From a virus, in the IMG/VR virus record IMGVR_UViG_3300025128_000307, positions 1 through 25,194 of that record: a stretch of DNA of 25,194 nt, one strand, 5' to 3'. A program made the translations under genes and the position numbers. The notes beneath the pieces are model-generated. The model saw nothing but the letters and a program-made list of their open reading frames with translations. It did not search any database and was not told the origin of the DNA. This document shows positions 2,374 to 17,970 of this stretch, one piece after another (position 1 is the stretch's first letter; every line of letters begins with the position of its first letter).

Positions 2374-3309
2374 ATGTGCTTAATTATCAAAGCAGACAAG
2401 CCACAAATCATAAGTGAAACTATGATGAACTGTGCTTACTTAAACAATGATGATGGGTTTGGACTCATGTTTGCCAATAAGGGTAAAGTCCATGTTCACA
2501 AGTTAGGAAAACCTAAGTCATTCAAATCTATTAACAAAGTGTGGGATAGCTACAAAGATTTAGATGTACCTATCGGAGTACACTTTCGTTTCAATACAAA
2601 TGGAGAGTCAAGCAAAGCTATGTCGCACCCATTTCAAGTATTGACCAAAGACGAACACAACAGGGATATATGGCTCATGCACAATGGACCTCAACTTCCT
2701 ACGCCTATGATTGATGATAACAAATCAGACACTCATCAGTTTGTAAAGTGGATACTCAAGCCACAACTATCTAATGAGCCAGAGTTATTATACAATCCCG
2801 ATTGGCAAGAAATGATAGCCGATATGATTGGAAGTGACAAGCTCTTATTCCTGGATAGTAAGACAGAAGAATTTACTATCATCAATGAGCAAGAAGGTAA
2901 AACCACAGATGATATGTGGTTGTCTAACACTTACTCATTACAACCAACAGGTAACTATGCTTTGTCTAGAGATTACAAGTATGATGAAACTACTGACACT
3001 ATGCAGAAGAATATTTCCAAGTGGGATTATGAAGATGAAGATACATGGTATGGACATTATTCTGGAATAGGTTACAGTGCTAATGATGTGCCTGTTGGCA
3101 GAACAGAAGTCACTAGGTCAGCAAGACGCATACATGAACAACCTGTGGATAACAAAGATATTAATATCAATGGGCATAACATAACTGATGATGATTGGTA
3201 TGGTATGACACAGGAAGAAGTATACGATACTGTATGCGAAAACCCTATGGGTACAGCAGAGTGGGTATACGACATCATATATGATGGTAACAAGAAAGGT
3301 GGTAAGTAA
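2374..3309 (+). CDS. Class II glutamine amidotransferase (Ntn-hydrolase)
   Basis: This codes for 311 residues, with AAGGAG 15 bases upstream of the ATG. Cys2 follows the initiator Met, as in class II amidotransferases where the exposed N-terminal Cys is the nucleophile. Other family features are NNDDGFG (24-30), HFRFNTNG (70-77), an HPF at 85-87, MHNG (102-105) and SDT (118-120), which correspond to the Arg, Asn-Gly and Asp positions that hold glutamine. The first 130 residues form the glutaminase domain. The rest (130-311) is acidic, with no synthase domain I can recognise, so it may supply ammonia to a partner protein. The amidoligase lies directly upstream and is the obvious candidate. The stop overlaps the next start as TAATG. 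Confidence 0.85.
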   Translation: MCLIIKADKPQIISETMMNCAYLNNDDGFGLMFANKGKVHVHKLGKPKSFKSINKVWDSYKDLDVPIGVHFRFNTNGESSKAMSHPFQVLTKDEHNRDIWLMHNGPQLPTPMIDDNKSDTHQFVKWILKPQLSNEPELLYNPDWQEMIADMIGSDKLLFLDSKTEEFTIINEQEGKTTDDMWLSNTYSLQPTGNYALSRDYKYDETTDTMQKNISKWDYEDEDTWYGHYSGIGYSANDVPVGRTEVTRSARRIHEQPVDNKDININGHNITDDDWYGMTQEEVYDTVCENPMGTAEWVYDIIYDGNKKGGK

Positions 3310-3953
3310 TGATTATCTTTAGAAATGTAGAGAAAGGTACTTGGGAGTGTGAACAATCCAGGAATGGGAGTTCACATCTCACCACATGGAAACCTATACA
3401 CTCAGCAGTGTATCTGAAAGATGTTAGCTTTGGCGTGGTAACACACCCTTTCAAAGTAGAAACTTCGTTTCGCCGAAAACCTTTCAGCCCTTTGAACTTT
3501 GCTCATCAAGGAAAGGGGGCAGACTATGGTATTGCAATCAAAGGTACACCGATTAACCTTATGGATTGGCAGAAGTTATATGCCGAAGACAATCCAGTGC
3601 CGACAACTATACGCAAACTGTGGTCAAGATATGGGGAAAGATTCTATTCAGCCTATCCTAGTATGGTCAAACATTTTAAGGATAAAGGGTTGTGGAACTT
3701 AGCAACGCAGAGTCCTAGCTACACAGGTACTAACGCAGTAGCTAGTAATAGAACTTTCCCTACATTAGTAGGTAATGATATGAACCATGCATTTATACCG
3801 AGTCCTGTTAAAGCAATGCATATACCATCAGCAACAGGTACTCACTTCCAAGTGCTGTTTGATTCCAAGCAAACAGTTAGAACATGGAGCGATTGGCACA
3901 CAGTAATCGAGCCATCATGGAAACAAGTCGTTCTATCGAGAGCGGCAGCTTAA
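3309..3953 (+). CDS. Unknown protein coupled to the amidotransferase
   Basis: This codes for 214 residues. Its ATG shares one base with the amidotransferase stop (TAATG), so it is probably made by re-initiation in fixed ratio with that enzyme. It has no signal peptide or membrane segment. Aromatic and His/Lys residues are spread through it, with a FSPLNFAHQGKGADYG stretch near residues 58-73 and a W-rich C-terminus. I do not recognise the fold. By position it is a candidate subunit, substrate or accessory factor of the amidoligase cassette. The alternative is an unrelated early phage protein. It is the last gene before a long intergenic stretch. Confidence 0.65.
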   Translation: MIIFRNVEKGTWECEQSRNGSSHLTTWKPIHSAVYLKDVSFGVVTHPFKVETSFRRKPFSPLNFAHQGKGADYGIAIKGTPINLMDWQKLYAEDNPVPTTIRKLWSRYGERFYSAYPSMVKHFKDKGLWNLATQSPSYTGTNAVASNRTFPTLVGNDMNHAFIPSPVKAMHIPSATGTHFQVLFDSKQTVRTWSDWHTVIEPSWKQVVLSRAAA

Positions 3954-4219
3954 TCCTGGATAATCCAGGTACCCGAATGAGTCCGAGTCAGCATCGGTAT
4001 TACACGAGGGTATCTGTTTCAGTAAGTATAGGGGTATGAGGTAGTCTTGTATAGTACACCTTACTCTATGAACTATATATAGTATATAATAAATTATTAT
4101 TATATTTTAAATCGTTTATTAGAGGGGTGTGCTTACCCTACAAAAACAGTAACCATTGTGATTTACCGATACTTTTTCGGTATCATTCGACAGAAAACTA
4201 TTGACGAGAGGAGAGAATT
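3954..4219 (+). other. Gene-free structured and AT-rich stretch (possible ncRNA, leader or origin)
   Basis: This 266-base stretch has no convincing gene. Its left part can fold. CCTGGAT (3955-3961) pairs with ATCCAGG (3963-3969). Alternatively GGTACCC (3968-3974) pairs with GGGTATC (4008-4014) and encloses CCGA/TCGG (3983-3986 with 3994-3997). The two folds share bases 3968-3969. The middle (about 4066-4125) is almost pure A/T. The right part holds a 6-bp hairpin TACCGA/TCGGTA (4164-4169 with 4177-4182). The stretch could be a gene-end signal plus promoter and leader, a small RNA, or a replication origin. It matches no ribozyme or riboswitch core I know. Confidence 0.4.
4061..4090 (+). promoter_or_regulatory. 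Weak sigma70 promoter candidate in the AT-rich stretch
   Basis: A perfect TATAAT (4085-4090) lies 18 bases after TTACTC (4061-4066), which matches 4 of 6 positions of the -35 consensus. The surrounding A/T-richness makes chance -10 matches easy, so confidence is low. If real, it would drive the genes from 4220 onward. Confidence 0.3.
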
Positions 4220-4330
4220 ATGTTAGAGTTAATCTTGATTTATTTTTTAGGATTTATTTCATTGCCCACATTTTACTGGGCAAGCGTAGTATTACATGAG
4301 GTATACTATGCAATCAACAGGAAAGACTAA
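4220..4330 (+). CDS. 36-residue membrane micro-protein
   Basis: This is a short frame with a good GAGAGGAGAG Shine-Dalgarno region at 4205-4214. Residues 3-27 are almost entirely hydrophobic (LIYFLGF, then a PTFYWASVV segment), giving one membrane helix, followed by a short polar tail ending in NRKD. It lies 12 bases before the next gene, which has its own AGGAG. No family recognised. It is one of eight small membrane proteins in this window. Confidence 0.55.
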   Translation: MLELILIYFLGFISLPTFYWASVVLHEVYYAINRKD

Positions 4331-4342
4331 CAGGAGACAGTT

Positions 4343-4831
4343 ATGAATCCATTGATACCAACAGACGCAATACAATTACGATACTACTCACCTATCTATG
4401 AGCCTATCTATGATGAAGATGATAATGTCATAGACGAGGAGTGTGTTCGTAGTGGTAGCGATGTGTACGAAGACTTTATTAAGCCAACGCATGATGATGG
4501 TGTACCTAGATACTATCGTCTTAGGTATTCAAGAAATGCGAAAGACCATAAACGCAGATGGGAACAGTGGATTAATAATAAACTAGGCACATCTGACCCT
4601 ATCTTTGTGCGTGTTTGTAAGATAGGTAGGAGAGTATTGTTTAAATACGACCCTAAGTTAGTAGCTAAACACGAGAAGAAACTTAAGACATTTCAATTTC
4701 TCAGGGACAAAATAAACCAGGAACCTGAATCAGCTGCAGGTGCTGCTGACATACCTGGTAGTTTTATAGATTTAATAGATGTAGCAAGAGAACTACAAGA
4801 AAGGATGCAAGATGAAGAAGAAAGAAGATAA
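4343..4831 (+). CDS. Unknown phage protein, 162 aa
   Basis: AGGAG sits at 4332-4336, seven bases before the ATG. The protein has an acidic, Tyr-rich N-terminal third (YEPIYDEDDNVIDEE near residues 18-32), a basic middle with many Arg/Lys/Trp residues (about 57-110) and an acidic C-terminal helix ending in EERR. The charge pattern suggests a soluble protein that could bind nucleic acid through its middle part, but I see no named motif. Its last 20 bases overlap the next small gene. Confidence 0.65.
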   Translation: MNPLIPTDAIQLRYYSPIYEPIYDEDDNVIDEECVRSGSDVYEDFIKPTHDDGVPRYYRLRYSRNAKDHKRRWEQWINNKLGTSDPIFVRVCKIGRRVLFKYDPKLVAKHEKKLKTFQFLRDKINQEPESAAGAADIPGSFIDLIDVARELQERMQDEEERR

Positions 4832-4946
4832 ACAGTGGGAAATCATGACTGACTTTACAATCACTATACTGTCATTGATGATTTCATTGGGGGCATTTGC
4901 ACTTATGATTATGTTATTTGTGTGGGTGTCTAAGTTATTCTCATGA
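4812..4946 (+). CDS. 44-residue membrane micro-protein
   Basis: It starts inside the end of the previous gene, where a run of A/G (GGATGCAAG, 4803-4811) gives a modest Shine-Dalgarno match. It ends in an ATGA overlap with the next gene. The N-terminal 10 residues are charged (KKKEDK). Residues 15-39 form one strongly hydrophobic helix rich in Met, Leu and Ile. With Lys at the N-terminus, the positive-inside rule would place that end in the cytoplasm. No family recognised. Confidence 0.5.
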   Translation: MKKKEDKQWEIMTDFTITILSLMISLGAFALMIMLFVWVSKLFS

Positions 4947-5206
4947 AGTATGTAGTAACAACATGGGAAACCTTGCAGTGTCAGTACGAGGTGGAATCAG
5001 CTACCAAAGAACAAGCATGGCAAGATGTACTTGACAACAAAGGAGTGCAGATAGATAAACAATGGGTTGATGAAGGCTCATATGTTGTCAAAGAAAAAGA
5101 CAGACAAAACCAGGAAGGCGTGCAGCTTCAGCCCGGTGTAAAATTTCCTGGGAATGTTGTTGATTTTAAAACTAAAGTAAGTGAGTTACTTAAGAAGAAA
5201 AAATAA
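4943..5206 (+). CDS. DpnD/PcfM-like small protein, paralogue 1
   Basis: This codes for 87 residues and overlaps the previous stop (ATGA). The N-terminus reads MKYVVTTWETLQCQYEVESATKEQAW, a beta-beta-alpha pattern like the short DpnD/PcfM-type domain common in phages and mobile elements. A basic tail (KKKK) closes it. The protein at 7454 has the same architecture: MKY-x-V-x-T, a Q-x-x-VE strand, a Lys/Glu/Ala helix, a D-K-Q turn, a Y-V-x-KE strand and a QEG motif. The two look like duplicates within this genome. Their function is unknown. Confidence 0.65.
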   Translation: MKYVVTTWETLQCQYEVESATKEQAWQDVLDNKGVQIDKQWVDEGSYVVKEKDRQNQEGVQLQPGVKFPGNVVDFKTKVSELLKKKK

Positions 5207-5239
5207 ATGTCAATAATTTATTGACAAGAAAGGAGTACA

Positions 5240-5515
5240 ATGATATATGATTTAGTTAAGATTAAATGGCTTGACGCAATGTCTGATGATAATACTTGGC
5301 AAGAGTTATCTGAGTTGAGACAGCAACAATTACGCACTGTCGAAACTGTTGGGTGGATTATCCAAGACTTTGGAGATAAGGTAGTAACTATATCATCATA
5401 TGATGACGAGTGTAAGACAGGGGGTGGGGGTGCTGTTATCCCTAAGGTTAACATTGTAGAGATACAACACTTAGATGGAGGTAGGATTGAAGAACTTAAA
5501 CCACAACCCTTATAA
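5240..5515 (+). CDS. Conserved-looking small phage protein, unknown function
   Basis: This codes for 91 residues with AGGAG at 5231-5235. It reads as a small alpha/beta protein: a strand with KIKWLDA (8-14), a polar W-x2-L helix, then TVGWIIQDFGDKVVTI (35-50) and IPKVNIVEIQHLDGG near the C-terminus. I recall similar W-L-D-A/TVGW/IPK proteins of about 80 residues in many phages, all without known function. The 3' end overlaps the cyclotransferase gene by about 40 bases. Confidence 0.65.
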   Translation: MIYDLVKIKWLDAMSDDNTWQELSELRQQQLRTVETVGWIIQDFGDKVVTISSYDDECKTGGGGAVIPKVNIVEIQHLDGGRIEELKPQPL

Positions 5516-5918
5516 GACTAGACTATTTACTTATGGTACGCTCAAGAAAGGGGGCAGGTTAGAAACTCTAATCGGAGATGGTACATACCTGGGTGAATAC
5601 TTTACATTGCATTCAGTCTTTGACATGATTGATTATCAAAGTGCTTTCCCCATTGTGTTTCGCAAATGGGATAAGGGTAAGTCAATCAAAGGACATCTGT
5701 ATGAATTAGACCTACATCATATGGATTACATTAATCGTATGGAAACTAATGCAGAGTATACACCTATGGTTGTAGATATAATTAACGAAGAAGGGGACTT
5801 GACAAATGCTATTATGTTTGTTAATTCAGTAGGAGAAAAACATATTGATTCTATGTACCACATGGGAACAGGAAACAATATAAAAGAAGAGAAAGGATAT
5901 ATGGAATGGCAACAGTAG
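5475..5918 (+). CDS. Gamma-glutamylcyclotransferase-like (GGCT/AIG2) protein
   Basis: This codes for about 147 residues from ATG 5475. TTG 5487 is an alternative start because GGAGG lies five bases before it. The protein opens with FTYGTLKKGG (about 18-27), the YGTL/YGSL loop that binds the gamma-glutamyl group in this fold. It continues with AFPIVF (57-62), GHLYELD (73-79) and INRMETNAEY (86-95), where Glu90 fits the catalytic Glu of the family. Relatives release 5-oxoproline from gamma-glutamyl amides. Occurrence in one run with an amidoligase and a glutamine amidotransferase suggests that it edits, removes or matures a glutamyl modification. That role is inferred from context. Confidence 0.8.
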   Translation: MEVGLKNLNHNPYKTRLFTYGTLKKGGRLETLIGDGTYLGEYFTLHSVFDMIDYQSAFPIVFRKWDKGKSIKGHLYELDLHHMDYINRMETNAEYTPMVVDIINEEGDLTNAIMFVNSVGEKHIDSMYHMGTGNNIKEEKGYMEWQQ

Positions 5919-6076
5919 GAGGGATACTAAGTTATGTAGCTGTGTATGGTTTATTTATACTAGGCTCAATGAGTTTTTTCTTTAACCCGAACGTTATCAC
6001 ATTGCTAGTGTTTGTATTTACAATGTGGTTGTTCTTAAACAGAAGGAGTCGCAATGACAAAGAAGAAAAAAAGTAA
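5906..6076 (+). CDS. 56-residue double-span membrane protein
   Basis: It starts 13 bases inside the end of the cyclotransferase gene (GAAAGGA lies upstream at 5891-5897) and overlaps the next gene by 23 bases. Residues 5-26 and 30-46 are hydrophobic, separated by an NPN turn, and the protein ends in a very basic and acidic tail (NRRSRNDKEEKK). It may form a small helical hairpin in the inner membrane. No family recognised. Confidence 0.5.
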   Translation: MATVGGILSYVAVYGLFILGSMSFFFNPNVITLLVFVFTMWLFLNRRSRNDKEEKK

Positions 6077-6314
6077 GTGGACTAAAGGTGTAGGCTTGAG
6101 AGAGGCAACACCTAGAGACGAAGACATCTTAGATGAGGGTGACTTTGTAATGGATGGCTATACAGTAGCCCCTAAAAGAAATACATCGTTTGATTTAGAT
6201 GATATGAATCTAGACCAAGATGATTATGAATACAGACAGGAGGAAATAAATGGGTTGGAATCCGAAAACGCAGAACCTATTGCAGTGGACAGATATTTCA
6301 AACGCATTAGATAA
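6054..6314 (+). CDS. Unknown protein with basic head and acidic body
   Basis: This codes for 86 residues with AAGGAG at 6041-6046. The first 12 residues are Lys-rich (TKKKKSKWTKG). Residues 22-70 are dominated by Asp and Glu with scattered Tyr. No membrane segment or motif is seen. It overlaps the following gene by 65 bases. The next start has its own strong AGGAGG, so both frames are probably used. Confidence 0.6.
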   Translation: MTKKKKSKWTKGVGLREATPRDEDILDEGDFVMDGYTVAPKRNTSFDLDDMNLDQDDYEYRQEEINGLESENAEPIAVDRYFKRIR

Positions 6315-10368: not shown

Positions 10369-11472
10369 ATGGGTGAGTATGCAGTCAATAAACGTGTGCC
10401 GTCTAGCAAACCATCATCAGCCGATGGTTGCAAGATAGCATTTGTTTTCGAGTATCCTACCAACAAAGAAGCAATAGCTAATACGATTCTGCAAGGGGGC
10501 ACGGGAAAAGTATTCGCGGAACTTTGCGACATTGCTGGTATCACCCTCGACGATTGCTTACTCACCCACACTATACAATTAAAAGCACATCAAAATACAG
10601 CACAACATTTTTTCCACAAACGAAACGAATACAAACGCTTGTGTAAGACAACTGAGTGGCGGTCACCTTATGGTCCTACTAAAGAAGGTTATCTTAAACA
10701 AGAGTACGAGCAAGACATACAACGGTTACACAAAGAAATAGAAGAAGCCAATCCAAATATCATTATCGCAATGGGTTCATTATCTTTGTGGGCAGTGACA
10801 GGTCTAGACAAAGTCGGTACTTATAGAGGGGCTACATTACAAACAAGTCTCCTTTCTTCTCCATATAAAGTACTTGCAACTTATAGTCCTGTTGCTGTCG
10901 TTAAAAATTTTAAGTGGCGACCTCACGTAGCTTCTGATTTAATCAAAGCTAAAAGCGAATCGCTCAGCAAAACATTAGAACATACTGAAAGAGAGATATG
11001 GATTGAACCTACTCTCTCCGACCTCGATACGTTCTATACTAAATACATTAGTAAAGCAAATCACAACGACCCTCTCGCATTTGATATTGAAACAGCAGAA
11101 GGCTCTATCGTATGTATAGGCTTTGCACCTAATCCTCGAACTGCAATCGTAGTTCCTTTTCGTGATAAGAATACTGACACCCAAAACTATTGGAACGCTA
11201 CAGAAGAAGTAGCTGCATGGCAATGGGTGCGTAAGATCCTGGAAGACGAAGAGATTGTAAAGGTAGCACAGAATCAACTATATGATATATCATGGCTCGC
11301 TCACAAACAGAAGATAAAAGTTAAAGGTATCACACATGATACCATGCATGCCCAACATTCATTGCAACCAGAACAAGAAAAAGGTTTAGGTTTCTTAGGC
11401 TCAATTTATACAAATGAGAGTGCTTGGAAAACACTAGCCAAGTTTTCAAAGAGTACCAAAGCAGATGAATAG
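10369..11472 (+). CDS. UDG-like domain fused to the N-terminal part of a 3'-5' exonuclease domain
   Basis: This codes for 367 residues. Residues 20-200 resemble a uracil-DNA glycosylase of the family 4/5 type: FEYPTNKEA (28-36), GGTGKVFAELCDIAGI (43-58), NPNIIIAMGSLSLWAV (128-143), RGATLQ (153-158) and ATYSPVAVV (170-178). In active enzymes the last motif is normally HPS or HPA; here the His is Ser, so activity is doubtful. Residues 234-350 are the start of a DnaQ-like exonuclease, with LAFDIET (Exo I, D239 and E241) and QNQLYDISWL (Exo II, D306). It lacks Exo III, which lies at the start of the polymerase chain at 12020. The protein ends at KSTKADE where unsplit relatives would continue. The two chains probably assemble into one proofreading polymerase. 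Confidence 0.8.
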   Translation: MGEYAVNKRVPSSKPSSADGCKIAFVFEYPTNKEAIANTILQGGTGKVFAELCDIAGITLDDCLLTHTIQLKAHQNTAQHFFHKRNEYKRLCKTTEWRSPYGPTKEGYLKQEYEQDIQRLHKEIEEANPNIIIAMGSLSLWAVTGLDKVGTYRGATLQTSLLSSPYKVLATYSPVAVVKNFKWRPHVASDLIKAKSESLSKTLEHTEREIWIEPTLSDLDTFYTKYISKANHNDPLAFDIETAEGSIVCIGFAPNPRTAIVVPFRDKNTDTQNYWNATEEVAAWQWVRKILEDEEIVKVAQNQLYDISWLAHKQKIKVKGITHDTMHAQHSLQPEQEKGLGFLGSIYTNESAWKTLAKFSKSTKADE

Positions 11473-11474
11473 AA

Positions 11475-11789
11475 ATGAAACGATCAGAATTATTCTCGGT
11501 CAAGCCGATGCCCGAGGATTCAAAGGACATAGAGAACCACTACAATTTATGGAGGGCTGTTCTCGATCAGGCAGTACAAGATTATTCCTACAAAGGCAAA
11601 TCCGAAGAGGGTTTAAAAGCAAAGAAAGAAGTAGAGAAATGGTTGAGGTACAAGTATAAAGAATTTAAATTCGTATGTGAAATGGCTGCAGTTGACCATG
11701 CCAGAGCACGTAAAGAGTTTGATAAATATAAGGAGGGAGAATATGACAGGAACAGGGAGGTCATCAGAATTACTAAAAAAAGCAAGTGA
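11475..11789 (+). CDS. Conserved-looking small phage protein inserted in the split polymerase
   Basis: This codes for 104 residues and begins 2 bases after the exonuclease stop. The pattern LWRAVLDQAVQDY (25-37), KKEVEKWLRY-K-YKEFKFVCEMA (50-71) and ARKEFDKY is familiar from many phages as a small helical protein: an RAV-LQA helix, then A-WL, then F-VCELAG and V-R. Its function is unknown to me, and it has no nuclease or intron-homing motif. It overlaps the next gene by 47 bases. It separates two parts of one exonuclease domain, which is unusual. Confidence 0.65.
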   Translation: MKRSELFSVKPMPEDSKDIENHYNLWRAVLDQAVQDYSYKGKSEEGLKAKKEVEKWLRYKYKEFKFVCEMAAVDHARARKEFDKYKEGEYDRNREVIRITKKSK

Positions 11790-12051
11790 CTTAGTAAGTG
11801 GTGACCGTCAAAAAGATTATGGAGATAAGCTTCATAATCACAAGAACATTGCAGACTTATGGACAGCGTACTTAGATACGACTGTTAGCCCACATGATGT
11901 AGCAGTCATGATGTGCTTACTAAAGATAGCCAGACTGAAGCAAGGATCCAGAACAGAAGACACATACCTGGATGCATCAGCTTACATGGCAATAGCAAGA
12001 GAAATACAGGAGAGAATAGATGGCGAGGATAGTAAAGAACACAGAGATTAA
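11743..12051 (+). CDS. DUF6378-like protein inserted in the split polymerase
   Basis: This codes for 102 residues from ATG 11743, set by AGGAGGGAG at 11731-11739; an upstream ATG at 11677 is less likely. Motifs are LVSGDRQKDYGD (about 16-27), NIADLWTAYL (33-42), SPHDVAVMMCLLKIARL (46-62) and DTYLDASAYMAIA (70-82). This matches the DUF6378 phage family, an all-helical protein whose acidic residues recall MazG-like nucleotide pyrophosphohydrolases. That relation is not certain. It overlaps the polymerase chain by 32 bases, so the polymerase start is probably coupled to it. Confidence 0.75.
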   Translation: MTGTGRSSELLKKASDLVSGDRQKDYGDKLHNHKNIADLWTAYLDTTVSPHDVAVMMCLLKIARLKQGSRTEDTYLDASAYMAIAREIQERIDGEDSKEHRD

Positions 12052-13567
12052 GGGTTTAAAACTTAATTCAGAGCAAGTACTATGGGTTTATTGTGGGTTA
12101 GATTGCAACTTAACTACTGAGATATGGGGTAAACTTTCTCCCCAACTAGATAACAATACAAAAAATACATACGAGTTCGAACGTAACTCATTAGGTCCTG
12201 CAATATCTATGGTATTGCGTGGGCTACGTGTAGATGAGAGGGCAGTTACTATGATACGTGCCCCCTTACAAAAGAAAAGATTAAAGCTAGAGAGAATGTT
12301 AAATCTCTTTGCTCATGCAGTATGGGATAAGGACTTGAATCATAATAGTCCTGTACAATTAAAGTCTATGCTGTATGAATATCTAAATCTTCCAGTACAA
12401 ATTAAATATGAAAAAGGTAAACAGAAAGTATCTACTGATAGAGAAGCATTAGAACATATGATAGAAGAGTATCCTCGTGCTCGTCCTTTCTGTAAAACTA
12501 TTATTACCTTACGTGATATTGATAAACAATTATCTGTATTAAAAGCAAAGAGAGATTCTGATGGACGCATACGTTGTTCGTATAATGTAGCAGGCACAGA
12601 GACAGGTAGATGGTCTTCATCTGAAAGTCCTTGGGGTACAGGTACAAACTTACAGAATATTACAAAGGACTTGCGGGCTATGTTCATACCAGACAGAGGA
12701 CGTACCATGTTCTATGCCGACTTACAAGCAGCTGAATCCAGGGCAACAGCCTACCTCTCAGGTGATGCAGGTTACATCAATGCCGTTGAATCATCAGACC
12801 TACATACTGAAGTAGCTAAGATGGTCTGGCCTAACATGGGTTGGACAGAAGATAATGCACAGAACAGAGAGATAGCAGAGCGTCCTTACTACGGAAACTT
12901 TTCTTATCGTGATGTATGTAAGAGGGCAGGTCATGGAACTAACTATGGTGCATCAGCTAATACAGTAGCAAGACATACCAAAATTAAGGTAGCACATGCT
13001 ACAAGATTTCAACTTTTATACTTCGGTGGTATAGTACCATTAGCTTCATTAGAACGTTGGCACAAACAAGATAAACGTGGTGGCTTTGAAGAACTTATAG
13101 AGATAGGAGAAGTTATAGGTAGTGGTAGCCAGCAGCTTGTGCGTGTGACGGGAGCATTTCCTGGCATAAGAACTTGGCACACCGAAGTTATAAAAGAATT
13201 ACAAACAACAGGCAATCTTATTACACCATTCGGTAGACGTAGACAATTCTGGGGTAGGCTAGATGATGAACACTATGCAAGAAAAGCTATAGCATATCTT
13301 CCGCAATCTACTATTGGTGACTTGTTAAACTTAGGATTGTATAGAGTATGGAAAGAATTATTTAATGATGGTGTAGAAATACTTGGTCAAGTACATGACG
13401 CAGTATTAGGTCAGTGTCCGACAGATAAAGTGGATGAGTTAATACCACAAGTTATTAGTTGTTTAGAAAATCCTATTGAAGTTAAAGGTAAAACTATGGT
13501 GATACCTTCTGACGCAGAGGTAGGGGATTCGTGGAAAAGTTTAAAGAAGTGGAGTGCTAATGCGTAA
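12020..13567 (+). CDS. polA: Family A DNA polymerase, polymerase domain with Exo III
   Basis: This codes for 515 residues, with AGGAGAG (12009-12015) before the ATG. It begins with YCGLD (24-28), the Y-x3-D Exo III motif of the proofreading domain whose Exo I and II lie in the gene ending at 11472. The polymerase part is complete: TETGRWSS (193-200) and NLQN (210-213), motif A FYADLQAAESR (231-241, Asp234), motif B RDVCKRAGHGTNYG (297-310; Arg297, Lys301, Tyr309) and motif C GQVHDAV (456-462, His459 and Asp460). Spacing of motif B places His305 at the position equivalent to Phe762 of E. coli Pol I (Tyr526 of T7), which influences nucleotide discrimination and is usually Phe, Tyr or Leu. It replicates the phage genome and overlaps the helicase gene by 8 bases. 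Confidence 0.9.
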   Translation: MARIVKNTEIKGLKLNSEQVLWVYCGLDCNLTTEIWGKLSPQLDNNTKNTYEFERNSLGPAISMVLRGLRVDERAVTMIRAPLQKKRLKLERMLNLFAHAVWDKDLNHNSPVQLKSMLYEYLNLPVQIKYEKGKQKVSTDREALEHMIEEYPRARPFCKTIITLRDIDKQLSVLKAKRDSDGRIRCSYNVAGTETGRWSSSESPWGTGTNLQNITKDLRAMFIPDRGRTMFYADLQAAESRATAYLSGDAGYINAVESSDLHTEVAKMVWPNMGWTEDNAQNREIAERPYYGNFSYRDVCKRAGHGTNYGASANTVARHTKIKVAHATRFQLLYFGGIVPLASLERWHKQDKRGGFEELIEIGEVIGSGSQQLVRVTGAFPGIRTWHTEVIKELQTTGNLITPFGRRRQFWGRLDDEHYARKAIAYLPQSTIGDLLNLGLYRVWKELFNDGVEILGQVHDAVLGQCPTDKVDELIPQVISCLENPIEVKGKTMVIPSDAEVGDSWKSLKKWSANA

Positions 13568-15355: not shown

Positions 15356-17116
15356 ATGATAAATAAACCAACGATAGATGTCGAACGCGACAATCTTTTA
15401 ACGGACTTTGGTAAAGAAGTCCTCAGAGATAGGTATATGTTACCTACAGAGAAATCTCCCCAGGAAGCATTTGCCAGAGCTGCCGCAGCTTTTGCGGATT
15501 CAGATGCTCATGCTAAAAGGTTGTATGATTACTCGTCTAAGTTATGGTTTATGTTTGCTACTCCTATCTTATCTAATGGTGGTACCGATAGAGGACTTCC
15601 TATCTCATGCTTCTTAAATTATGTACCCGATTCTCGTGAAGGATTGTCAGAACATTACGCAGAAAATATTTGGTTATCAAGTTCAGGTGGTGGTATCGGT
15701 GGATACTGGGGTGACATAAGGTCGCAGGATCAATCAACAAGTAAGGGTAATAAAACTACAGGAGTTATACCTTTCATGCATGTAGTTGATAGTCAAATGG
15801 TTGCGTTTAACCAGGGGGCAACAAGACGTGGGAGCTATGCCAGCTACATGGACATATCACATCCAGAAATTATAGAGTTCATAGAAATGAGAAAGCCAAG
15901 TGGTGGTGATGTTAATAGAAAGAATCTTAATCTGCATCATGGGATAAATGTATCTGATAAATTTATGAGAGCATTGGAGAAAGATGAATCATGGAAACTA
16001 ATTGACCCACATAATAAAAAAGTTATAAGAGAAATTAAAGCTAGGCAATTATGGATTAAAATATTAGAGACAAGAGTTTCAACAGGTGAACCTTATATTA
16101 TGTTTAGTGATACAGTTAATAAAGGATTACCAAAAGAATTAAAAGCAAAAGGATTAAAGGTACATCATTCAAATCTGTGTAGTGAAATTACTTTACCAAC
16201 TAATCCCGATCGTACTGCAGTATGTTGTTTGTCATCTGTTAACCTGGAATACTTTGATGAATGGAAAGATGACCTACACTTTATTGATGATATAATGCGC
16301 ATGTTAGATAATGTATTAACTTACTTTATAAAGCATGCCCCCGCTCATCTATGGAGAGCAGTAGCCTCAGCAAAAGCAGAACGTTCAGTAGGATTAGGGG
16401 CTATGGGATTTCATTCTTACTTACAACGTGTAGGTATAGGGTTGAATAGTCCTATGTCTTATGGCATTAATAAGAAAATATTTAAACACATATATGATAA
16501 AGCTTTAGAATCAAACTTTACCCTTGGTAAAGTAAGAGGTGAGCCAGAAGATATGAAAGGTAGTGGTAAAAGATTTGCACATATGCTAGCCATTGCACCA
16601 AATGCTAGTAGTTCTATTATATGTGGGGGTGTATCTCCTAGCATAGAACCATTACGTGCTAATGCTTTCACCCAAAAAACTATGAGCGGTTCGTTCTTAG
16701 TTAAGAATAAATACTTAGAAAAATTATTAGAAGAGAAAGGTAAGAATACTAAAGATGTTTGGAAGACTATTATTTCTAGTAGAGGATCTGTCGATGAACT
16801 CGACTTCCTCACGCCGCAAGAAAAAAATATATTTAAAACCGCAATCGAAGTTGATCAAGCGTGGTTGGTGGACTTGGCTGGCGAACGTCAAAACTATATT
16901 TGCCAAGCGCAATCATTAAACTTATTCTTCCCACCAGATGTAAACGTAAGAAGATTAAACAATATACATAAACGTGCGTGGGAAAACGGATTGAAAACTT
17001 TATACTATTGTAGAAGTGAAGCTATTAAAAGAGCAGAGAACATTGCTACTAAAGTAGAAAGAAAAGTTAGACAGGATAGTGAAGAGGAGGAATCATGCGT
17101 GATGTGTCAAGCTTAA
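15356..17116 (+). CDS. nrdA: Ribonucleotide reductase class I, large (alpha) subunit
   Basis: This codes for 586 residues and catalyses ribonucleotide to deoxyribonucleotide reduction with the beta subunit at 18044. Catalytic residues are present: ISCFLNYVPDS (Cys85, first of the redox pair), SNLCSEI (Asn273, Cys275 thiyl, Glu277), AVCCLSS (290/291, second redox Cys), LYYCRSEA (Tyr550-Tyr551 of the radical path) and the C-terminal CVMC pair (581, 584), which is re-reduced by thioredoxin or glutaredoxin. At 586 residues it is much shorter than E. coli NrdA (about 760). It has no N-terminal ATP-cone, so dATP feedback inhibition is probably absent, as in many phage enzymes. AGGA at 15346-15349 sets the start. 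The 3' end overlaps the methyltransferase gene by 22 bases. Confidence 0.93.
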   Translation: MINKPTIDVERDNLLTDFGKEVLRDRYMLPTEKSPQEAFARAAAAFADSDAHAKRLYDYSSKLWFMFATPILSNGGTDRGLPISCFLNYVPDSREGLSEHYAENIWLSSSGGGIGGYWGDIRSQDQSTSKGNKTTGVIPFMHVVDSQMVAFNQGATRRGSYASYMDISHPEIIEFIEMRKPSGGDVNRKNLNLHHGINVSDKFMRALEKDESWKLIDPHNKKVIREIKARQLWIKILETRVSTGEPYIMFSDTVNKGLPKELKAKGLKVHHSNLCSEITLPTNPDRTAVCCLSSVNLEYFDEWKDDLHFIDDIMRMLDNVLTYFIKHAPAHLWRAVASAKAERSVGLGAMGFHSYLQRVGIGLNSPMSYGINKKIFKHIYDKALESNFTLGKVRGEPEDMKGSGKRFAHMLAIAPNASSSIICGGVSPSIEPLRANAFTQKTMSGSFLVKNKYLEKLLEEKGKNTKDVWKTIISSRGSVDELDFLTPQEKNIFKTAIEVDQAWLVDLAGERQNYICQAQSLNLFFPPDVNVRRLNNIHKRAWENGLKTLYYCRSEAIKRAENIATKVERKVRQDSEEEESCVMCQA

Positions 17117-17970
17117 AACATTTAGATTTATTTAGTGGTCTTGGTGGTTTTAGTTTAGGACTTGAAGCTACAGGTGGATTTGAAACTATAGCTTTCTGTG
17201 ACATAGAAAAGTTTCCACGTAAAGTTTTAAAACATCATTGGCCTGATGTAAAACAATACAAAGATATAAAGGAGTTAACTTATGAGAGATTACAAGAAGA
17301 CGGAATCGGACACATCGACATTATCACGGGCGGATATCCTTGCCAACCTTTCTCCATCGCAGGTAGAAAAAAAGGTGAAGAAGATAAAAGACACCTCTGG
17401 CCAGAAATGTTTAGACTTATCCACGAATGCAGGCCCACTTGGGTCATTGGAGAAAACGTTAGTGGACACATTAAACTCGGTCTCGACACCGTACTTGAGG
17501 ACTTGGAGAGTGAAGGTTACACCGCGAGGGCGTTTAGTATTTCAGCTTCTAGCGTCGGTGCCAACCACAAAAGAGAAAGGGTCTGGATTGTGGCGAACTC
17601 CAGACAACGTAGCAGGGGGATCAAATCTACCTGGAATACAGAGAGCATTGGACGAGGGTCATCTGAACAGACCGAGCGGTCAACCAATACAGATAAGGTT
17701 GGCGGATCAAGTGAGGGAGCCGAGACTGTGTCCGACTCCAACAGCGAGAGATTACAAGGACTCGGGTCCGAACAGCAACTACGAAAAAATGAGACAGAAA
17801 GGCCGACTAGCTGGGACAGCTGGTGGCAGCTTGAACCCAACGTGGGTCGAGTGGCTAATGGGATACCCAAAAGGGTGGACAGACTTAAAGGACTAGGTAA
17901 TAGTTTAGTGCCCGCTATACCTTTTATAATAGGGCAATCAATTTTAAGAGAGGAGAATATATGGCAATAG
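17095..17970 (+). CDS. DNA (cytosine-5) methyltransferase
   Basis: This codes for 291 residues, with GAGGAGGAA just before the ATG inside the nrdA end. All main C5 methyltransferase motifs are present: I HLDLFSGLGGFSLGLE (9-24, AdoMet binding), IV GGYPCQPFS (79-87, catalytic Cys83), VI GENV (119-122), VIII ANHKRERVWIV (156-166) and X KGLGNSLVPAI (265-275). It transfers a methyl group to cytosine C5 in phage or host DNA, perhaps protecting against restriction. The part between VIII and IX, where target recognition lies, is Ser/Glu/Arg/Thr-rich and low in hydrophobics. That same DNA encodes a second protein in the +1 frame (17282-17896), which may explain the odd composition. No cognate restriction gene is seen. 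Confidence 0.9.
   Translation: MRDVSSLKHLDLFSGLGGFSLGLEATGGFETIAFCDIEKFPRKVLKHHWPDVKQYKDIKELTYERLQEDGIGHIDIITGGYPCQPFSIAGRKKGEEDKRHLWPEMFRLIHECRPTWVIGENVSGHIKLGLDTVLEDLESEGYTARAFSISASSVGANHKRERVWIVANSRQRSRGIKSTWNTESIGRGSSEQTERSTNTDKVGGSSEGAETVSDSNSERLQGLGSEQQLRKNETERPTSWDSWWQLEPNVGRVANGIPKRVDRLKGLGNSLVPAIPFIIGQSILREENIWQ
17268..17274 (+). promoter_or_regulatory. Ribosome binding site for the nested +1 frame gene
   Basis: AAAGGAG lies 7 bases before ATG 17282, an ideal Shine-Dalgarno arrangement in the middle of the methyltransferase gene. It is the chief local evidence that the overlapping frame is translated on its own. Confidence 0.65.
17282..17896 (+). CDS. Nested +1 frame phage protein (TPTARD/LNPTWVEWLMGYP family)
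   Basis: This codes for 204 residues entirely inside the methyltransferase gene, in the +1 frame, with its own AAAGGAG. The product is not shadow-like. It has a KTLVDTL...YLRTWRVKVTPRGRLVFQLL stretch (about 57-90), GSGLWRTPDNVAGG (100-113), CPTPTARDYKD (149-159) and a GGSLNPTWVEWLMGYPKGWTDL C-terminus (about 180-201). I know these motifs from a widespread phage protein, usually labelled hypothetical or methyltransferase-associated, that ends in LNPEWVEWLMGFPxGWTDL. That motif uses the same bases as the methyltransferase segment LEPNVGRVANGIPKRVDRLKG. Function is unknown, and a role with the methyltransferase is suggested only by the shared locus. It has no membrane segment. Confidence 0.7.
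   Translation: MRDYKKTESDTSTLSRADILANLSPSQVEKKVKKIKDTSGQKCLDLSTNAGPLGSLEKTLVDTLNSVSTPYLRTWRVKVTPRGRLVFQLLASVPTTKEKGSGLWRTPDNVAGGSNLPGIQRALDEGHLNRPSGQPIQIRLADQVREPRLCPTPTARDYKDSGPNSNYEKMRQKGRLAGTAGGSLNPTWVEWLMGYPKGWTDLKD

Follow-up and report, generated by a model that had tools for sequence, protein, structure and literature searches.

Split replicative polymerases are already known in bacteriophages. In the LUZ24-like phages (LUZ24 gp25/gp34 and UFV-P2; PMC3890496) a family A polymerase is carried by two genes with many unrelated genes between them, and in the MEP401-type OM43 phages (Zobellviridae; PMC10580990) the cut lies inside the polymerase domain and leaves the exonuclease domain on the first chain. 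The T4-related Aeromonas phages 25 and 44RR also encode their replicative polymerase in two parts, gp43A and gp43B (Petrov 2010, reviewed in PMC2988022), and in phage 25 the gp43 split has a seg homing endonuclease (PMC2988022). The marine HMO-2011-type family A polymerase (PMC9038755) has an extra element between its exonuclease and polymerase domains. Here we describe a family A polymerase that is divided at another point, between motifs Exo II and Exo III of its 3'-5' proofreading exonuclease. It is encoded in a 25,194-base stretch of viral DNA, positions 1 to 25,194 of the IMG/VR virus record IMGVR_UViG_3300025128_000307; the whole of this stretch is called the window below.

Four consecutive genes on the + strand make up the locus (Table 1): an exonuclease gene, ORF-H (ORF, open reading frame), a DUF6378 gene and the polymerase gene. 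A first-pass annotation of this DNA had proposed these four ORFs, with the catalytic residues D239, E241 and D306 on the first chain and D28 on the second, and all were located where it had placed them. It had also rightly recognized the exonuclease and its motifs on the first chain, leaving the N-terminal UDG-like domain (PF03167) unmentioned, and had described each gap gene as overlapping its neighbours. This is so for ORF-H and the DUF6378 gene (47 nucleotides) and for the DUF6378 and polymerase genes (32 nucleotides), but the exonuclease gene and ORF-H are separated by a 2-nucleotide spacer (11473-11474).

Taken on their sequences, the exonuclease gene and the polymerase gene together are one UDG-type family A polymerase. 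Aligned to PHROG_17, which profiles unsplit polymerases, the first chain takes up columns 476-788 and the second columns 804-1238 (E=6e-67 for the polymerase chain). These stretches adjoin, so no substantial part of the polymerase is missing, and the two genes tile one unsplit homologue in the manner of gp43A and gp43B. A polymerase piece hidden in the gap was considered and rejected, since the stretch of the profile between the two chains is no longer than about 15 columns. All the marks of a family A polymerase with a 3'-5' exonuclease are present, namely a PF00476 domain together with Exo I (DxE), Exo II (Nx2[YF]D) and Exo III (Yx3D), distributed over two chains. A phmmer alignment pairs Y24 of the polymerase chain with Y497 of Klenow (number 174 in the crystal chain), and D28 therefore matches D501. 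The family PF01612 (173 positions) is divided in the same way: in six long relatives (44-59 kb, of unstated completeness) the first ORF covers about positions 4-133, and the second covers 109/150-173 in three of the six. By eye, a histidine of the polymerase chain (HGTNY, within RAGHGTNY at residues 302-309) stands at the position matching F762 of E. coli Pol I, as it does in unsplit relatives.

The unsplit form of the enzyme is a continuous single gene in Microcystis phage Mel-JY34, phage ctMlz233, EBPR podovirus 3 and a Desulfofustis phage, and IMG/VR contigs with a continuous gene were also found. It had been anticipated in the first-pass annotation that unsplit relatives would run straight from the exonuclease into the polymerase, and Mel-JY34, ctMlz233 and the IMG/VR contigs bear this out. 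The polymerases of SPO1-like phages are of the same unsplit UDG-exonuclease-polymerase family A kind. At the position of the break the unsplit enzymes read ...WKDEGKEWDLASGNENWVYNGKD..., while the window reads ...WKTLAKFSKSTKADE followed by a stop codon and, after a new start, MARIVKNTEIKGLKLNSEQVLWVYCGLD... The short loop of the unsplit enzymes (about 13 residues) is replaced in the window by a 13-residue tail on the first chain and a 21-residue head on the second. Both halves are complete in 241 loci, of which 200 are split here and 41 continuous across this point (8 of the latter are interrupted at another place in the gene). The loci include repeat retrievals of some contigs, and the split ones represent 92 distinct sequence pairs, the relative L199 (see below) excluded. 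One arrangement in 92 distinct pairs from many metagenomes excludes chance or an assembly error as the cause of the split.

Every one of the 92 pairs keeps Exo I and Exo II on the first chain and the Exo III residues Y24 and D28 on the second, and even at identities as low as 33-37% no catalytic residue of the exonuclease varies on either chain. In one frame-broken contig (L033) an apparent lack of Exo I and Exo II comes from the wrong frame; the right frame keeps the motifs. Pooled over 12 pairs by the Nei-Gojobori method, the ratio of non-synonymous to synonymous substitution rates (dN/dS) is 0.12 in the UDG part and 0.13 in the exonuclease part, against 0.085 in the Exo III segment and 0.08 in the polymerase, which reflects strong purifying selection. 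The first chain contains no substitute for the missing motif: [YH]xxxD past Exo II occurs in none of the 86 readable marine exonuclease chains. This agrees with the earlier proposal that either the exonuclease site needs both polypeptides or proofreading is lost. An alternative Exo III inside the first chain was rejected; lone chance matches to [YH]xxxD are seen only in Caulobacter phage Kuura and in the relative L157.

An AlphaFold model of the first chain (predicted local distance difference test score, pLDDT, 89; predicted template modelling score, pTM, 0.84) contains a UDG-like domain and a Klenow-type exonuclease domain, each matching its known counterpart, and is disordered only in the first three and last ten residues (358-367, pLDDT < 50). 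The model of an unsplit relative, L161, whose sequence was aligned to the split chains (pLDDT 94, pTM 0.90), matches Pol I/Klenow at a template modelling (TM) score of 0.80 and places Exo I at D225/E227, Exo II at D291 and Exo III at Y357/D361 on a helix spanning residues 352-378. The break maps to L161 residues 340-351. In this stretch, which separates Exo II from the Exo III helix, confidence falls to about 72, the minimum of the exonuclease domain. Its place in a loop directly before the helix fits the earlier suggestion that the break lies between two motifs, where it would be tolerated. In other family A enzymes the corresponding stretch, between helix E and helix F, is variable, extended and mobile (PMC8599892). 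From the unsplit homologue we infer that the catalytic residues of the two chains meet in one site.

The UDG-like domain (10429-10911 in the window) shows a difference of its own. The histidine of UDG motif B is absent in all 86 readable marine chains (which have YSP, YNP, YPS and so on), and motif A (GEAPG) is likewise lost in them. Motif B is HP in Kuura, L157 and the other non-marine split members, and in the unsplit enzymes checked. These sequences suggest that the marine UDG-like domain is probably structural and not catalytic.

Table 1. Features of the divided polymerase locus, with positions in the window
Feature	Position	Strand	Evidence or remarks
Exonuclease chain, 367 residues: UDG-like domain and 3'-5' exonuclease domain lacking the last (Exo III) helix	10369..11472	+	PF03167 at residues 21-181, PF01612 at residues 223-349
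Exo I, D239-x-E241 (FDIET)	11083..11091	+	Invariant in split and unsplit relatives
Exo II, N302-x-x-Y305-D306 (NQLYD)	11272..11286	+	Invariant in split and unsplit relatives
C-terminal tail of exonuclease chain, residues 355-367, where unsplit enzymes have the loop	11431..11469	+	Nearly frozen in the marine clade
ORF-H, 104 residues, family unknown, motif LWRAVxDQAxxD	11475..11789	+	No Pfam match; weak match to phrog_7024
Shine-Dalgarno-like site AGGAGG, for DUF6378 gene	11731..11736	+	Sequence
DUF6378 gene, 102 residues; DUF3310 gene instead in other lineages	11743..12051	+	PF19905, E=2e-29
Shine-Dalgarno-like site AGGAG, for polymerase gene, within DUF6378 gene	12008..12012	+	Sequence
Polymerase chain, 515 residues: head, Exo III helix and family A polymerase	12020..13567	+	PF00476, E=5.5e-40; Klenow alignment from Y497 on
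Head of polymerase chain, residues 1-21 (MARIVKNTEIK...)	12020..12082	+	Alignments: common to the split clade, not in unsplit enzymes
Exo III, Y24-x3-D28 (YCGLD)	12089..12103	+	Y and D invariant in 92 of 92 distinct pairs

The explanation that we favour, with a probability of roughly 85%, is that the two chains fold, dock non-covalently and complete one proofreading site; physical assembly and proofreading activity are the two elements of it that we infer, while the sequences themselves show the layout, the one origin, the conservation, the selection and the place of the break in a loop. One UDG-type family A replicative polymerase would then be produced as two polypeptides. The four genes stand head to tail, and the chains would probably come from one message through coupled translation, because the gene starts overlap or nearly touch and are accompanied by the sites AGGAGG (at 11731) and AGGAG (at 12008). 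The first chain (UDG-like domain with Exo I and Exo II) and the second (Exo III helix with polymerase) would fold separately and then dock; a covalent link would not be needed, as the flexible loop that holds the break immediately precedes the Exo III helix. That helix would contribute Y24 and D28 and so complete the two-metal exonuclease site. There are precedents: in phage 25 the split gp43A/B co-purify and are active, and the split NrdA of phage Aeh1 is fully active (PMC2988022).

Some observations weigh against this explanation. Evolution is faster in the polymerase-chain head (dN/dS 0.35) than in the other parts, partly because this head overlaps the DUF6378 gene. The tail of the exonuclease chain, which in the marine clade has a dN of 0.012 and a dS of 0.22, is modelled as disordered, and its low dS suggests that the conservation is partly at the nucleotide level and not for docking. 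In addition, profile matches to the gap ORFs revealed no endonuclease in the gap of the window or of the main clade. The idea that ORF-H or DUF6378 contains a relic of an endonuclease was likewise rejected, there being no match to such a family.

All complete members of the group, which is large and mostly marine, are split: 194 marine loci (87 distinct pairs), Kuura, and the relatives L156/L157, L323 and L324. The split is common to marine, lake and soil phages. In a tree of 53 representatives the main split enzymes stand on one branch (24 rows, 100/99) and, going by this tree, the split arose once, in the ancestor of the main clade. The heads of the polymerase chains of Kuura, L157, L324 and L326 resemble that of the window, which fits a single origin. 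The split enzyme of L199 is placed among the unsplit enzymes, so the loop has been cut at least twice.

The contents of the gap differ by lineage. Every complete marine relative has ORF-H followed by a DUF6378 gene (107 loci) or a DUF3310 gene (87 loci), counts that include some contigs more than once. Kuura (35-39% identity) shares the layout of the window and holds a different pair of small genes in its gap; the paper describing it names a DNA polymerase and makes no mention of a split (PMC9959647). The gap of L157 holds one DUF1937-type gene and that of L323 one gene resembling nucleoside deoxyribosyltransferases. L324 has no gap gene, the exonuclease stop overlapping the polymerase start (TGATG), and in L326 only a short spacer with no ORF separates the halves. 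Since these two soil members are divided with no gap gene, the split is independent of its cargo. It is probably older than the present gap genes, and the gap is now a site of exchangeable small phage genes, with cargo that differs by lineage (for example, DUF6378, DUF3310 or DUF1937). The exchange of DUF6378 for DUF3310 in a single slot between ORF-H and the polymerase gene hints that the two are equivalent in function.

Breaks and insertions of this kind have occurred repeatedly in this polymerase family. In L199, an otherwise unsplit lineage, an HNH-type endonuclease ORF (L199:5043-5480; phrog_3377, E=9e-28) occupies the loop between Exo II and Exo III, and a GTG overlapping the stop codon of the endonuclease, with GGAGG before it, serves as the new start of the polymerase. 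This is possibly a fresh example of how a split forms. An HNH_3 gene cuts the exonuclease domain between Exo I and Exo II in two further relatives (L182:4626-4967 and L176:1343-1684). The polymerase domain itself is cut in L004, L173, L177, L178, L179 and L184, with various small genes in the gap, and those of these relatives that have profile coordinates share one position (198/199). The unsplit relative L325 (ORF 2987-6250, contig PWEN01000062.1) carries an intein-like insertion at the HG/NY motif of the polymerase domain; its contig has been binned with a Nealsonbacteria metagenome-assembled genome. The odds that a homing endonuclease made the first cut in the main clade are about even, the argument being one of analogy with L199 only, because the main clade retains no endonuclease.

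If the split is adaptive, the first chain could be a detachable proofreading subunit that shares its site with the polymerase chain, so that assembly switches proofreading on, and ORF-H could be a dedicated partner in the marine clade that attaches to both chains or modulates proofreading. Such a reading agrees with assembly of the two chains and goes beyond it; we regard it as rather unlikely. ORF-H is a real protein. It lies in the gap of every complete marine relative while its neighbour swaps, occurs at no other place in these loci, and is strongly selected (dN/dS 0.09); its relatives, in Wolbachia phage WO and Pelagibacter phage HTVC023P, are weak. The clade, moreover, has never repaired the split. 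In L099, a possible recombinant, the two chains belong to different subgroups: its exonuclease chain is 84% identical to that of the window and the start of its polymerase chain 98%. This mismatch may reflect either recombination at the gap or a chimeric contig. Nevertheless, Kuura, L156/L157, L323 and L324 are split and have no ORF-H, which is therefore not required for the split as such, and the absence of re-fusion is also expected when precise loss of an insert is rare.

Less probable still is that proofreading has been lost, the first chain being a relic or a UDG-like accessory and the second an exonuclease-free polymerase acting alone. The whole polymerase domain is indeed on the second chain, and the first by itself has no Exo III. 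Under such a loss, however, the Exo III tyrosine and aspartate of the second chain could drift freely, whereas the catalytic residues are invariant on both chains through all the divergence sampled and the dN/dS of the exonuclease part is like that of the UDG part and near that of the polymerase. A replacement exonuclease elsewhere in the genome was also rejected: no RNase_T/DnaQ-type exonuclease (PF00929) was found in the six long relatives, where a full-strength PF01612 match occurs once, on the first chain. The conserved motifs, the purifying selection, the absence of a DnaQ-type replacement and that of another Yx3D together make loss unlikely, and the second of the two outcomes allowed by the first-pass annotation can be largely set aside.

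Least probable of all is that an intron, an intein pair, a programmed frameshift or a bypass restores a single chain: although phage polymerase genes commonly hold introns, inteins and homing endonucleases, and L325 has its intein-like insertion, no Rfam intron was found in the window or in 13 relatives and no intein family in either chain (an intron or intein at the break was rejected on these grounds), the gap encodes conserved proteins with their own start sites, the chain ends and beginnings are lineage-specific protein sequence with stop and start codons, and L324, with its overlapping stop and start, offers nothing to splice.

Elsewhere in the window, a C5 cytosine methylase gene (17095-17970, + strand; PF00145, E=2e-39) contains, in another frame, an ORF of 204 residues (17282-17896, + strand; phrog_1008, E=3e-25). 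The two are a candidate genuine overlapping gene pair, sharing about 615 bases.

Comparison with the known systems places the window apart from each of them. The unsplit UDG-exonuclease-polymerase enzymes (PHROG_17; Mel-JY34, ctMlz233 and phiLo, PDB 9qhs) have the same domains in the same order, with Exo I, Exo II and Exo III all present, and a DUF3987 gene comes next after the polymerase in Mel-JY34 and the window alike; they differ in forming a single polypeptide, whose loop corresponds in the window to a stop codon, two intervening genes and a second start. In LUZ24 the cut comes after the whole exonuclease domain. By eye, gp25 holds Exo I (DLEGD), Exo II (HNILDYD) and Exo III (YCLQD), so the LUZ24 active site is not shared between chains, and at 169 residues gp25 is too short to add a UDG domain. 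A LUZ24-type split was accordingly rejected for the window, whose first chain has no complete exonuclease site. The gp43A/gp43B pair belongs to family B and is an unrelated protein, and the HMO-2011-type enzyme is a single polypeptide with an inserted DnaJ-type zinc domain. In the open-licence papers searched we found no description of a break between Exo II and Exo III of a family A polymerase, or of a split exonuclease site. A proofreading active site, as the window and its relatives show, can be divided between motifs and still be maintained by selection as two proteins in marine, lake and soil phages. The stages can be compared within one family (unsplit; an HNH-type endonuclease in the gap, as in L199; an empty gap, as in L324 and L326; and one or two later genes), so whether the split is merely tolerated or useful is testable there. 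The pair would be a natural two-part, and possibly controllable, proofreading polymerase. If assembly does switch proofreading on, it would be a family A counterpart of the separate proofreading subunit, built differently, since neither chain would be an exonuclease alone.

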